This document shows, in pieces, positions 35,702-40,332 of a stretch of 64,000 nt of DNA. Source of the DNA: an uncultured Saprospiraceae bacterium (lineage in GTDB: Bacteria > Bacteroidota > Bacteroidia > Chitinophagales > Saprospiraceae); assembly GCA_938015595.1 (NCBI GenBank), contig CALLPI010000001.1:62001-126000 (forward strand). The letters are read 5' to 3'. Every line of letters starts with the position of its first letter. Position 1 is the stretch's first letter. A program made the translations under genes and the position numbers. The notes under the pieces are model-generated. The model did not search any database. It had not been told where the DNA came from and saw only the letters and a list, made by a program, of their open reading frames with translations.

Positions 35702-35840
35702 GAAGCCCGTCAGGGCTGGCGCTGTTGGTGCAGCATTCGGGCGCGGTTTTATGATGTATTTCAGGGTATTTCAGCGGATTTATTTTGCATTATGGGCGGC
35801 TTTTATATTTTTGCTGCTTGAGATAGAGCCTGCTGTGCGG
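35702..35840 (+). repeat. Duplicated upstream module, copy A
   Basis: About 94% identical to 38564-38701 (copy B): roughly eight substitutions and one single-base gap over 139 bases. It starts in an AAGCCCGTCAGGGCTGGCGC repeat and ends at GCCTGCTGTGCGG. It carries a promoter-like pair, TTTTG (35783-35787), an 18-base spacer and TATTTTTG (35806-35813). Copy B stands close before the second FGE gene. Confidence 0.85.
35783..35813 (+). promoter_or_regulatory. Promoter-like element in duplicated module A
   Basis: TTTTG at 35783-35787 and TATTTTTG at 35806-35813, 18 bases apart, fit -33/-7. The equivalent -7 in copy B is TACTTTTG. It lies about 395 bases before the TIR-FGE start, so it may not be the main promoter. 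Confidence 0.4.
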
Positions 35841-36207: not shown

Positions 36208-38283
36208 ATGGCAGCACCGCTAAAAACTTTCATCATCTATTCCAGCCTCGACCGCGACTTGCGCGATGAGTTCCTGCAGCACCTCAAACCTCTGGAGCGT
36301 GCACAAAAAATTAGCGTCTGGAGTGATGCCGAAATCCCTCCGGGCGAGCCATGGAACAACGAAATTCAGGAAAAACTCCACGAAACAGAACTTTTCATAC
36401 CGCTCATCAGCAAAAATTTTTTCAATTCAAAGTACATCGAGGAAGTTGAACTCCCCTTTGCAGAGCAGCAGCGCAAAACGGGGCATGCTTTTGTGATTCC
36501 CGTTTTGTTGAGTGCCTGTGCTTACAAGTACGATCCCATCGTTGGGCAATTGGAGGTCATCCCCAAAGATAAGCCCATCATTTCCGCACAGGCTTGGGAA
36601 AATGCCGATGTGGCATGGGAGTATGTCATCGAAAAGATAGGCGAGCGAGCCAAGAAAATCCTCGAAGACCCCGATTTTTTGAAAAAACGGCAGGAAATTA
36701 AAGAAAAAAAAGCCGACGAAGCCGCCTGGCAAAAAGCCTTGCAAAGCGGCACCATCGCAGCATTTGAAAAGTACTTGGAAAACCCAGCGCATCACTTGCA
36801 CCGCACCGCAGCGACTCAGCGATTGGAAGCGTTAAAAATTGAACAACAAAAAGCCGCCGACGAAGCCGCCTGGCAAAGAGCCTTGCAAAGCGGCACCATC
36901 GCAGCATTTGAAAAGTACTTAGAAAACCCAGCGCACCAGCGGCACCACGTCGAAGCGACCCAGCGGCTGGAAGCCTTAAAAGCCGATGAATCTGCCTGGC
37001 AAAAAGCCTTGCAAAGCGGCACCATCGCAGCATTTGAAAAGTACTTAGAAAACCCAGCGCACCACTTGCACCGCAGCGAAGCGACCCAGCGGCTGGATGA
37101 ACTAAAAATTGAACAACAAAAAGCCGCCGACGAAGCCGCCTGGCAAAAAGCCTATCGCGCCGATACCATCGAAGCACTGGAGGCGTATTTAGCCAACCCA
37201 TCGCACCAGCTGCACCGCAGCGAAGCCACCCAGCGGCTGGAAGAGCTAAAAAAAGCCAAATCTCAACCGCCCTACCTGCGTTGGGCTGCCATCGGCATCG
37301 GCGCCCTGCTGGCGCTCTTCCTCATTGCCAGAGCCATTGGCTGTGGTGGCTGTAACAGCGAAGATGTAAAACCAATCGATCCTGTGGAGCCACCCGTGCC
37401 CGCCCCCTCGCGCCCCGACATGGTCTTCATCCGCGGCGGCACCTTCACCATGGGCTGCACGTCGGAGCAGCGGGATTGTGATGGTGATGAGTCGCCGACG
37501 TTTAAGGCGACGGTGTCGGATTTTTATTTGAGTCGGTACGAGGTGACTAATGAATCCTTTGTTGAATTTTTAAATTCAATTAGTAATAAGATTGCCCTTG
37601 ACGGTAACGGAGATCGGGTGAGTTTAAATGGGAATCCTATTTTTGATAATTTTTGCGGAGATAGAAAGGGAGGGTGTAGCGGTTTTGAAGAGATGATTGA
37701 ATACGACAATGGAACGAGGCCTGGTGGTAGGTTTAAGGTGGTTAGCGGCTATGCCAAGCATCCTGTAGTATTAGTTTCATGGTACGGTGCGGTGGAGTAC
37801 TGCAACTGGCTGAGCGATCGAGAGGGTTTGCGGAAGGTTTATACGATCAGAGGGAGAGAGGTTGAGGCGGATTGGAGCGCGAACGGCTATCGTTTGCCAA
37901 CGGAGGCGGAGTGGGAGTATGCGGCACGGGGAGGTGTGCAGTCCAAAGGGTACAAATATGCGGGCAGCGATAATTTGGACGAGGTGGCTTGGTATTTGAA
38001 AAATTCGGGCAGAAAAACACATCCTGTGGGAGAGAAAAAGCCCAACGAGTTGGGTTTGCACGACATGTCGGGCAATGTGTGGGAGTGGTGCTGGGATTGG
38101 AAAGATGCTTACAGTTCTGGTGCGAAGACGAATCCGCGGGGACCGGAGAAGGGCTCGTTCCGCGTGCTTCGCGGCGGCTCGTGGTACTACCTCGCCGAGT
38201 ACTGTCGCGTGTCGAATCGGAACGACCACGATCCGGGCAACCGCGCCGGCTACGGCGGCTTTCGCGTGGCCCTCGTCCCTTAG
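36208..38283 (+). CDS. TIR domain - repeat - transmembrane - FGE-sulfatase domain protein with putative DGR variable region
   Basis: 691 aa. Residues 1-150 form a TIR domain (KTFIIYSSLDRDLRDEFLQHL; KISVWSDAEIPPGEPW; ELFIPLISKNFFNSKYIEEVELPFAEQ), with Glu81 where TIR NADases have the catalytic Glu. Residues 169-350 are four near-identical helical repeats of the type ADEAAWQKALQSGTIAAFEK. A transmembrane helix (about 357-378, IGIGALLALFLIARAIG) precedes an FGE-sulfatase/SUMF1 domain (404-691: MVFIRGGTFTMGC, YRLPTEAEWEYAARGG, MSGNVWEWCWDW, RVLRGGSW, GFRVAL). The paired active-site Cys of true FGE are not both present, so it is probably a binding domain with C-type-lectin fold. The last ~30 residues look like a DGR variable repeat compared with the next gene. 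Predicted topology: TIR inside, FGE outside. Function in defence or signalling is inferred. Confidence 0.88.
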   Translation: MAAPLKTFIIYSSLDRDLRDEFLQHLKPLERAQKISVWSDAEIPPGEPWNNEIQEKLHETELFIPLISKNFFNSKYIEEVELPFAEQQRKTGHAFVIPVLLSACAYKYDPIVGQLEVIPKDKPIISAQAWENADVAWEYVIEKIGERAKKILEDPDFLKKRQEIKEKKADEAAWQKALQSGTIAAFEKYLENPAHHLHRTAATQRLEALKIEQQKAADEAAWQRALQSGTIAAFEKYLENPAHQRHHVEATQRLEALKADESAWQKALQSGTIAAFEKYLENPAHHLHRSEATQRLDELKIEQQKAADEAAWQKAYRADTIEALEAYLANPSHQLHRSEATQRLEELKKAKSQPPYLRWAAIGIGALLALFLIARAIGCGGCNSEDVKPIDPVEPPVPAPSRPDMVFIRGGTFTMGCTSEQRDCDGDESPTFKATVSDFYLSRYEVTNESFVEFLNSISNKIALDGNGDRVSLNGNPIFDNFCGDRKGGCSGFEEMIEYDNGTRPGGRFKVVSGYAKHPVVLVSWYGAVEYCNWLSDREGLRKVYTIRGREVEADWSANGYRLPTEAEWEYAARGGVQSKGYKYAGSDNLDEVAWYLKNSGRKTHPVGEKKPNELGLHDMSGNVWEWCWDWKDAYSSGAKTNPRGPEKGSFRVLRGGSWYYLAEYCRVSNRNDHDPGNRAGYGGFRVALVP
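36712..37257 (+). repeat. Four in-frame tandem repeats in the TIR-FGE gene
   Basis: Units at 36712-36855, 36856-36981, 36982-37125 and 37126-37257, coding for 48, 42, 48 and 44 residues. The first three are almost identical at the DNA level (GCACCATCGCAGCATTTGAA is shared), which implies recent duplication or gene conversion; the fourth is more diverged. The 42-residue unit lacks the IEQQKA linker. Confidence 0.9.
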
Positions 38284-38353
38284 TTTGGTGGCTTGCACAT
38301 CTTGCCATGCCCCTGGAGCTAAGGGTAGCAGGCAGGGTTTAAGCGAGCCGGAA
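38161..38353 (+). other. Putative DGR variable repeat A with 3' flank
   Basis: Coding bases 38161-38283 (RVLRGGSW to the stop) plus 70 bases after it. The first 24 bases are identical to 39763-39786. Then 14 codons between 38185 and 38259 differ from copy B, mostly at positions 1 and 2. The conserved end GFRVAL and the 3' flank starting TTTGGTGGCTTGCACATC are again nearly identical. This is the layout of a variable repeat with its downstream homing sequence. The template and reverse transcriptase are not in the window. Confidence 0.6.
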
Positions 38354-38455
38354 GGAGGGAAAGCCAAGCGGAGCCGGAGGCGAGCGGGCTTTCCCGCCTT
38401 GCGGCGAGCGGTGTTTGGGTGGCGAGTGTTTAGAAATGGTGGTGCGAATGGATGA

Positions 38456-38610
38456 AGAAGCCCGTTAGGGCTGGCGCCGTTTATAGAAACGGCATTCCAA
38501 AAACAAATAAAAGCCCGTCAGGGCTGGCGCCGTTTGTAGCCAATGGCATCGCGAAAAACGTTTGAAGCCCGTAGGGCTGGCGCCGTTGGTGCAGCATTCG
38601 GGCGCGGTTT
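38456..38610 (+). repeat. Tandem AAGCCCGTCAGGGCTGGCGCC repeats (3 units)
   Basis: Units begin near 38457, 38510 and 38564. Each holds a small palindromic heart (AGCCCGT.AGGGCT) followed by GGCGCCGTTTGTAG and a degenerate GC-ATTCCAAAAACA-like linker, with a period of about 52 bases. Related units occur at 35702, 36006 and 39991-40130. Confidence 0.75.
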
Positions 38611-38701
38611 TATGATGTATTTCAGGGTATTTCAGCGGATTTATTTCGCTTTATGGGCAGCTTTTGTACTTTTGCTGCTTGAGAAAGAGCCTGCTGTGCG
38701 G
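38564..38701 (+). repeat. Duplicated upstream module, copy B
   Basis: Partner of 35702-35840, about 94% identical. It has an exact -7 match TACTTTTG at 38677-38684, while the -33 position reads TTTCG rather than TTTTG. It ends 80 bases before the start of the second FGE gene. Confidence 0.85.
38677..38684 (+). promoter_or_regulatory. -7 element for the second FGE gene
   Basis: TACTTTTG inside duplicated module B, about 98 bases before the ATG at 38782. Confidence 0.45.
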
Positions 38702-38781
38702 TAGTTAGCGCATCGAGCGGCGACTAAATCCACAAAAAGTTTGACACGGACCAAAAAATAACGCAATAAAATAAACAACAG

Positions 38782-39885
38782 ATGAACTGCCATTTCATAC
38801 CCTTTCCGCTCCCGATGCTGCGCCCTCAATGGATTTGCGCGCTCTGCTGTCTTCTCTGGCTTGCCACGCCGGCAATGTCGCATCAAACCTCCTGTTGTTC
38901 ATCGATGATACAGCGAGGCCAAGCCGAATTTGATGAAAAAAACTACGATGAGGCTATCAGGATTTGGTCCGATGGAAAAAAAAGCTCTGACGCCGCCAAG
39001 TGCCCCGCTCTTGATGGGCTTATTGAAAAAGCCCAAACCGAAGAGCAAAACCGAAAAGCCGAGCAAGCCAGCCGGCCCCAAGCTGAGCAGCCGGCGCCCC
39101 CACGCCCCGACATGGTCTTCATCCGCGGCGGCGCCTTTACCATGGGCTGCACCTCCGAGCAGCGGAATTGTGATAGCAATGAGTCGCCGACGTTTGAGGC
39201 GACGGTGTCGGATTTTTATTTGGGTAGGTACGAGGTGACATTTGAGGAGTATGACGCGTTTTGCGCGGCGACGGGTCGCGAGAAGCCTGATGATGAGGGT
39301 TGGGGTCGAGGCAAGCGCCCTGTGATCAACGTAAGTTGGTACGATGCGGTGGAATACTGCAACTGGCTGAGCGAGCAGCACGGACTGACGCCGTATTACG
39401 CCATAGACAAGAGCCGCAAGGACCCGAATAATGAGAACAGCCTTGACGATGTAAAATGGACAGTAACGCCCAGGACGGGTTCGAAGGGCTATCGTTTGCC
39501 GACGGAGGCGGAATGGGAGTATGCGGCTCGGGGCGGAGCACAATCCAAAGGGTACAAATATGCGGGCAGCAGCAATTTGGACGAGGTGGCTTGGTTTTGG
39601 GAAAACTCGGAAGATAAAACGAATCCAGCAGGTCAGAAGAAACCCAACGAGTTGGGATTACACGACATGTCGGGCAATGTGTGGGAGTGGTGTTGGGACT
39701 GGTATGGCGAATACAGTTCGGGTGCGAAGACGAATCCGCGCGGAGCGGAGCGTGGTTCGTCCCGCGTGCTTCGCGGCGGCTCGTGGAACAACGAGGCCGA
39801 GTTCTGTCGCGTGTCGCTCCGGAGCTACTACTACCCGGACCTCCGCACCGGCCACTACGGCTTCCGCGTGGCCCTCGTGCCTTAG
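38782..39885 (+). CDS. Secreted FGE-sulfatase domain protein with putative DGR variable region
   Basis: 367 aa. The N-terminus carries a hydrophobic export signal (WICALCCLLWLATPAMS). ATG 38782 leaves a long n-region; ATG 38815 (MLRPQW) is a good alternative. A short helical, TPR-like segment (about 35-95, GQAEFDEKNYDEAIRIW) leads to an FGE-sulfatase/SUMF1 domain (about 110-367). That domain is closely similar to the one in the preceding TIR gene: MVFIRGGAFTMGC, INVSWYDAVEYCNWLS, GYRLPTEAEWEYAARGG, MSGNVWEWCWDW. It ends RVLRGGSWNNEAEFCRVSLR...GFRVALVP. The first of the two active-site Cys of catalytic FGE is absent in GGSWNNEAEFCR, so a ligand-binding role is more likely. It has no TIR part and is presumably secreted, a soluble paralogue of its neighbour. 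Confidence 0.88.
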   Translation: MNCHFIPFPLPMLRPQWICALCCLLWLATPAMSHQTSCCSSMIQRGQAEFDEKNYDEAIRIWSDGKKSSDAAKCPALDGLIEKAQTEEQNRKAEQASRPQAEQPAPPRPDMVFIRGGAFTMGCTSEQRNCDSNESPTFEATVSDFYLGRYEVTFEEYDAFCAATGREKPDDEGWGRGKRPVINVSWYDAVEYCNWLSEQHGLTPYYAIDKSRKDPNNENSLDDVKWTVTPRTGSKGYRLPTEAEWEYAARGGAQSKGYKYAGSSNLDEVAWFWENSEDKTNPAGQKKPNELGLHDMSGNVWEWCWDWYGEYSSGAKTNPRGAERGSSRVLRGGSWNNEAEFCRVSLRSYYYPDLRTGHYGFRVALVP

Positions 39886-39951
39886 TTTGGTGGCTTGCAC
39901 ATCTTGCCATGCCCTGGAGCTAAGGATAGGGGCAGGGTTAAGCGAGCCGGG
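39763..39951 (+). other. Putative DGR variable repeat B with 3' flank
   Basis: Counterpart of 38161-38353. It begins with the same 24 bases and has the variable codon block 39787-39861. The same 3' end and about 65 bases of 3' flank follow, differing only by a few substitutions and single-base gaps. Its variable positions include AAC-AAC directly after GGSW and three successive TAC codons. Confidence 0.6.
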
Positions 39952-40332
39952 AGTGAAAAATGAAAAGTGGGAGGTGTCCGGAGGGTGTGGAGAAGCCCGT
40001 CAGTGCTGACCCTGTTTGTAGCAATAGCGTTCCAAAACAATATAGAAGCCCGTTAGGGCTGGCGCCGTTTGTAGAAAAGGCATCGAAAAAACAAGAAGAA
40101 GCCCGTCAGGGCTGACCCCCCGTTTGTAGCTTGTTCAACAATTGGCAAACAGACTAGCTTTCTGCATGAGAGGGTAAAAAGTAAGGAGCGCCCAATCTCT
40201 TGTAAGACGTATTACAACTTTCTGGATGTGCACGTACTTTCTCATGCTTTATCTTCCTGAGTCATTCGCGGGCATACAAATTTTCCCGGAATCCTTCCTT
40301 ACTTTGCATCATCGCATTTTCCTATACTAACT
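39886..40332. other. Intergenic region after the second FGE gene
   Basis: 447 bases: conserved 3' flank of variable region B (39886-39951), three ~52-base tandem repeat units (39991-40130), then about 200 AT-richer bases. A near -7 match, TTACTTTG (40299-40306), lies before the dehydrogenase gene. No gene is seen, and no third copy of the RVLRGGSW coding DNA that could be a template repeat. Confidence 0.6.
39991..40130 (+). repeat. Tandem AAGCCCGTCAGGGCTGGCGCC repeats (3 units)
   Basis: Units begin near 39993, 40045 and 40098. The first has the variant CAGTGCTGACCCTG and the third CAGGGCTGACCCCCC. The linkers between units are themselves similar (GCAATAGCGTTCCAAAACA), so this is a degenerate tandem repeat and not a CRISPR array. 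Confidence 0.75.

Follow-up and report, generated by a model that had tools for sequence, protein, structure and literature searches.

The window analyzed here is a stretch of 64,000 nucleotides from an uncultured Saprospiraceae bacterium (assembly GCA_938015595.1, contig CALLPI010000001.1, positions 62,001 to 126,000), and it carries two neighboring genes, here called A and B, whose 3' ends match one another in the manner of the variable repeats (VRs) of a diversity-generating retroelement (DGR). All features described lie on the forward strand. Gene A (36208..38283) encodes 691 amino acids, comprising a TIR domain, stalk repeats, a likely membrane span and an FGE-sulfatase (C-type-lectin-like) domain that ends in a VR of 123 bases (38161..38283). 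Pfam matches place TIR_2 at residues 8-116 and FGE at residues 402-688, and the likely membrane span between the TIR/stalk part and the FGE domain was located by eye from the translation (37283..37341, WAAIGIGALLALFLIARAIG). Repeats of some 126-144 bases (KALQSGTIAAFEKYLENPAHH...), nearly identical to one another, make up the stalk (36708-37243), which suggests that it expanded recently. Gene B (38782..39885) encodes 367 amino acids, with a hydrophobic N-terminus (by eye) and an FGE domain that likewise ends in a 123-base VR (39763..39885). In both proteins the domain is PF03781 and the VR forms its C-terminal end, and the PDB entry closest to B, by sequence only, is 2y3c (E 4.5e-41), the variable protein of Treponema denticola, in an alignment that runs through the VR. 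With TIR on one side and a lectin-like domain beyond the likely membrane span, A resembles a receptor, and such a role is likely on the strength of its domain order.

The first-pass annotation of this stretch had proposed that the two genes end in DGR VRs, and its codon table proved exact. A block of 24 bases, coding for RVLRGGSW, starts at 38161 in A and at 39763 in B and is the same in both. Of the 25 codons after it, 14 differ, in the pairs listed there, and 18 of their 21 base differences fall on the first or second codon position. The codons of the differing pairs end in C in 25 of 28 cases, two synonymous changes (TTT/TTC and GTC/GTG) precede the stop, and about 65 bases beyond the two stops align with few changes. 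These last bases form a conserved 3' element, which reads TTTGGTGG...CCCTGGAGCTAA... after A (38284..38353), recurs after B (39886..39950, by sequence alignment) and is common to copies in two other genomes. At the 15 codons that vary across the class, C is the third base in 13 of A's and 14 of B's, against third-base C frequencies of 0.295 and 0.281 elsewhere in the same genes (binomial p = 7e-6 and 2e-7). Between A and B, codons for identical residues show synonymous change in 36 of 130 cases in the upstream FGE domain and in 2 of 25 cases within the repeat (Fisher p = 0.042). Two paralogues of one same-genus genome show the same contrast at 52/91 and 3/22 (p = 0.00025), and in the seven pairs that include same-genus G001 the framework codons have diverged less than the remainder of the domain (p 0.0066 to 8e-6).

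Repeats of one class in the genome and its relatives

The window's genome (G000) is a 3.77 Mb assembly in 27 contigs, rated 100% complete. Searching it with VR DNA returned A, B and one further place, at the start of contig C15, where the contig boundary leaves only the end of a third copy; the last variable codons of that copy are GTC ATC. A's repeat was searched for in 60 relatives and matches four of them, G000 counted among these; long matches occur in same-genus G001 alone, as two adjoining copies. B's repeat matches 27 of 398 family genomes (two candidates were scored per genome), and its closest match outside G000 is a complete copy in G333, about 120 bases from a contig end. An exact framework pattern run across the GTDB genome collection, a search that may leave out records of the window's own genome, found two stretches, in UBA2329 and CALHAM01, which we took to be those on contigs C44 of G001 and C141 of G333. 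The same pattern gave zero matches in IMG/VR, and A's repeat had no blastn match in plasmid and phage records.

Five complete VRs of one class could therefore be compared: A, B, one in G333 and two in G001. Residues vary among them at 19 codons, 16 of which (8-10, 12, 13, 18, 20-23, 25, 26, 28-31) fit template codons AAC, GAC and GAG; codons 12, 25 and 29 vary solely at the second base and codon 9 solely at the first, while codons 36-38 vary in single copies, off the template pattern. Against one inferred template the copies mismatch at 15, 15, 16, 22 and 15 of 30 adenines (in the order A, B, G333, G001, G001) and at 3, 2, 5, 2 and 6 of the 93 other bases, a consistency check that is partly circular, as the template was inferred from the same five VRs. 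The share of codons ending in C at the 15 variable codons is 87-100% in each copy. Independent support comes from the real templates of relatives, which carry NNN runs at the variable columns of A and B, for example in G386. Variation in the three additional VRs falls on the same codons and has the same adenine-like character, as the DGR reading of the first-pass annotation would have it. That annotation had also reasoned that three third-base mismatches mean one template cannot explain everything; the mismatches are real, and a second template is unneeded. The changes outside adenines, three C to T in A and two C to G in B, fit rewriting from a template followed by drift through point changes.

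One might ask whether a DGR was ever involved. Paralogous FGE domains could diversify by selection at exposed ligand-binding codons while gene conversion keeps the framework alike, and gene conversion could explain the conserved 3' flank as well; the frame VLRGGSW...CR...R...P..R...GFR does recur across the FGE domains inspected. Selection on residues, however, would not hold a third-base C in nearly every variable codon of five copies, and C stands there in 84 of 95 codons at the 19 columns, despite the GAG column (codon 12) and the off-pattern columns 36-38. Two other FGE genes of G000 with readable C-termini have mixed third bases (by eye), and the same columns are AAC-rich in real template repeats (TRs) of relatives. 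We consider an origin without any DGR very improbable.

The first 156 bases of C15 (L004 1-156) are identical to the last 156 of C141 (L093 10229-10384), which belongs to a genome of another genus. This identity could reflect a repeat shared within one metagenome, recent transfer or an assembly effect. Misbinning of C15 is unlikely: the nearest homologues of its genes are in same-genus G001 (70-78% identity), and for several of these genes G333 itself contains homologues that are more distant (64-70%). Counter to C15 belonging to G000, the repeat array at its start is nearer to the G333 arrays (77-85%) than to those beside A and B (74-78%). It is also unlikely that C141 is a stray piece of G000, as several C141 genes have homologues in G000, in the window and on other contigs, at 67-75% identity.

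Complete retroelements in related genomes

Complete DGRs with FGE targets, again as the first-pass reading would lead one to expect, are present in genomes of the same genus and the same family. RVT_1 has matches in 52 of 119 relatives, a count that covers every kind of reverse transcriptase (RT). A TR/VR finder applied to fetched loci recovered long, nearly adenine-only TR/VR pairs in G002 (four loci), G022, G025, G016 and G003, and further long pairs in G386, G240, G188, G173 and others; among the loci listed the FGE target comes first, followed by accessory, RT and TR. Same-genus G002 has an FGE target, an HRDC accessory, an RT of 328-334 amino acids and a TR at each of its four loci, with TR/VR mismatches falling on template adenines in 11/12, 19/19, 15/15 and 22/23 cases. 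The accessory of one of them, L057, is an HRDC domain protein by Pfam and has matching relatives at the other loci of that clade, and a TIR-like gene lies directly upstream of the B-like FGE target at the same locus (by eye).

A profile of eight DGR RTs was run on 13 genomes, chosen from 27 with VR-like or TR DNA. Six have a full-length DGR RT (G002, G386, G188, G436, G173, G240), one has an RT shortened by a contig end (G001), and six have none by this profile (G000, G333, G064, G020, G444 and G437, the last with distant RTs only). The shortened gene lies on contig C20 of G001 (L106 / L153), where an FGE target with a VR of another class and an HRDC-like accessory are followed by the first 99 residues of a DGR RT, at which point the contig ends. 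A second RT of G001, at L052, was ruled out as a DGR RT: cas1- and type III-like CRISPR genes adjoin it (by eye), which marks it as CRISPR-associated. This gene (L052 8637-9971) and the RT genes seen by eye next to cas1-like or other CRISPR-like genes or arrays at L053 and L059 are not DGRs and inflate the RVT_1 counts.

Search for the machinery in the genome of A and B

The first-pass annotation had suggested looking for a DGR RT and a matching template in the complete genome, and neither turned up in G000. It has no match to RVT_1 (PF00078) or to the DGR RT profile; the VR DNA search returned VRs and no template repeat; the predicted TR-flank pattern, allowing up to 2 mismatches, had no forward match; and the inferred-template query found A, B and the cut third VR, and no TR. 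The same query recovers TRs of other classes in G386, G188 and, for two of four, in G002. In G001 and G333 it returned VRs and no TR, with one weak short match besides in G333; in G001 it also matches, on the opposite strand, the 3' flanks of both VRs (40/43 candidates scored). By the exact framework pattern, a TR of this class was found neither in the GTDB genome collection nor in IMG/VR. Absence of an RT or template from the genome or close relatives had been named beforehand as counting against a DGR; that absence holds for G000 itself, whereas the relatives carry complete DGRs.

A DGR could also still be active here, its RT and TR hidden in a gap of the assembly, carried by an unbinned mobile element, or acting in trans from a co-resident replicon. 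The third VR is truncated at the start of C15, the complete G333 copy sits close to a contig end, a DGR RT gene of G001 is cut in the same way, and trans-acting TRs and strain variants with intact machinery have been reported for Thiohalocapsa (PMC10907252; this and the other papers cited are drawn on in excerpt). Against this stand the lack of any RT or TR in an assembly rated complete, the lack of a class TR in GTDB or IMG/VR by the framework pattern, and the lack of a blastn match to A's repeat among plasmids and phages. The state of the repeats themselves also argues against ongoing rewriting. Three RT-bearing loci of relatives have a TR and two or three VRs each; over five pairs of these VRs, 101 differences fall on template adenines and 1 elsewhere. 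Of the 23 differences between A and B, 18 are at first or second codon positions and 5 at third positions, a third-position share (5/23) far above the non-adenine share (1/102) at loci with an RT. An active DGR in G000 is not supported, and we regard it as unlikely.

Where the accessory, RT and TR sit in the complete DGRs of relatives, the window has short tandem arrays of a 53-base unit, with 2.4 copies after A (38458..38587) and 2.6 copies after B (39991..40130). The unit, AAGCCCGTYAGGGCTGG...GCCGTTTRTAG, has two short internal dyads (by eye) and occurs in the window between 35703 and 40130 and at L004 251-386. Allowing up to one mismatch, its core appears 11 times in G000: seven around A and B, three by the C15 copy and one elsewhere. 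G333 has the unit at 12 places, and ordinary genes adjoin it in the two contigs inspected (C62, C71), which marks it as a spreading repeat and not a part of a DGR. A near-identical block (TTATGATGTATTTCAGGGTATTTCAGCGG) also lies upstream of both A (35703-35790) and B (38570-38660), by eye, and the cassette therefore seems to have been duplicated together with its leader.

Flanking sequences of templates and targets

In DGRs of the HRDC clade, the 12-22 bases flanking the TR on its 3' side often recur, in reverse complement, no more than 35 nt downstream of the VR. This inversion is seen at L054-L058, L080 (offset by 3), L088, L095, L099, L101 and L109 (one mismatch). Among 16 HRDC-clade TR/VR pairs, nine score beyond all 236 mismatched controls and two come near the top (2 and 7 of the 236 controls reach them); the remaining five, one of them a truncated pair, give no signal. 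None of 11 Avd-clade pairs exceeds the controls, two reaching 8.0 against a control maximum of 8.5. The 67 pairs from viral contigs likewise stay within their controls, whose maximum is 11 and whose 99th percentile is 9.0; L178, the highest of the 67 at 10.0, passes that percentile, and its RT scores closer to the HRDC clade. The inversion as a general DGR feature is thus ruled out. The excerpted parts of PMC3240598, PMC12875486 and PMC4891356, where they touch on the topic at all, describe hairpins or inverted repeats next to the VR, and they contain no description of this relation between TR and VR flanks. We speculate that in the HRDC clade the template RNA could anneal via the inverted 3' flank to the coding strand of its target, guiding homing.

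The conserved 3' element of A and B occupies the position that matches this inverted flank. CCGGA is common in the TR flanks of the HRDC clade. Read as reverse complement, the VR flanks in G001 still have it, while those in G000 and G333 have CAAGA in its place (by eye), which would mean either decay or evidence against homology of the flanks. A hairpin or cruciform in the 3' element, suspected by eye, gained no support from single-strand DNA folding: the five flanks of the class fold no better than shuffles (z 0.29 to 1.69), and two complete-DGR flanks barely differ either (-0.39, -0.80); of the eight stretches folded, L095:9160-9242 was misplaced and is uninformative. Separately, short direct repeats of the type AATCTG stand in the VR 3' flanks of many viral DGRs, at loci such as L186, L187, L243 and L252.

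Discussion

We propose, with a probability of roughly four in five, that A and B are DGR targets which have been orphaned and are slowly decaying, and that they belong to a putative immune sensor. The last ~120 coding bases of each gene would be VRs, written by error-prone reverse transcription of an adenine-rich template (AAC, GAC) whose copies entered A and B by mutagenic retrohoming. The RT and template would later have been lost from the lineage, or the target cassette would have arrived without them, and the two VRs would now drift. The diversified part would be the ligand-binding end of the FGE/C-type-lectin fold, and A would probably serve as a fixed, formerly evolvable ligand sensor for its TIR effector, joined to it through the likely membrane span. 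The adenine-restricted pattern against the inferred template, the homology to DGR targets, the lack of an RT or TR in the assembled genome and the complete DGRs of relatives are observed; from them we infer both that the machinery was lost, as opposed to falling in an assembly gap, and that A acts as a sensor.

Several points weigh against this proposal. The template is partly circular, as noted, and no template of this VR class is seen in any genome searched; the inferred-template query missed two of the four known G002 TRs, although these are of other classes; and an assembly in 27 contigs, with the third VR cut at the start of C15, leaves room for a DGR in a gap. The synonymous contrast between A and B is modest taken alone (p = 0.042), and no such contrast between repeat and upstream domain is seen for A-G333 and B-G333 (p 1 and 0.8). 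Decay is judged from five sites, and any loss of the machinery would have to be recent, given how well the VR framework and 3' element are preserved.

Remnants of this kind have been described elsewhere. In the HRDC-type DGRs of T. denticola (PMC4891356; PDB 2y3c) the variable protein also has an FGE fold whose C-terminal end aligns to the VR; these systems have an HRDC accessory and remote targets, and some isolates keep target genes as remnants without RT and TR. The targets here differ in being TIR-membrane-FGE (A) or FGE alone (B), in Saprospiraceae, with no TR in any genome of the class, and the complete Saprospiraceae relatives have the TR after the RT, whereas PMC4891356 places the accessory between TR and RT in T. 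denticola. The clade 5 DGRs of multicellular bacteria in Thiohalocapsa PB-PSB1 (PMC10907252) have putative sensor targets with TIR and other effector domains, for which an antigen-sensor role has been proposed, in line with the role we suggest for A. Degenerate loci there have repeat arrays in place of the RT or TR, much as the A and B loci have 53-base arrays at that place, yet PB-PSB1 keeps one complete locus per class and G000 shows none. The arrays of Thiohalocapsa and the RT- and TR-less targets of T. denticola together make A and B a known kind of remnant. Closer to home, the four G002 loci and the complete DGRs of the same family share the target fold, and their TR columns match the variable codons; unlike the window, with its short arrays, they have HRDC accessory, RT and TR in place.

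We also entertain, tentatively, the rather doubtful possibility that the VRs of A and B are dormant targets, which a horizontally acquired DGR could rewrite through the conserved 3' element TTTGGTGG ... CCCTGGAGC that they have kept. More broadly, the flank inversion suggests a pairing step in DGR target recognition, which, if true, is a step we did not find described in the excerpts checked. A literature search combining DGR and Saprospiraceae found no paper, and RT-anchored surveys miss targets far from an RT, as one survey states of itself (PMC8144416).

The remnant targets reported for T. denticola and Thiohalocapsa are here extended to the Saprospiraceae. Our findings suggest that TIR sensors diversified by a DGR can outlive their diversifier, which bears on how useful such sensors may be once fixed.

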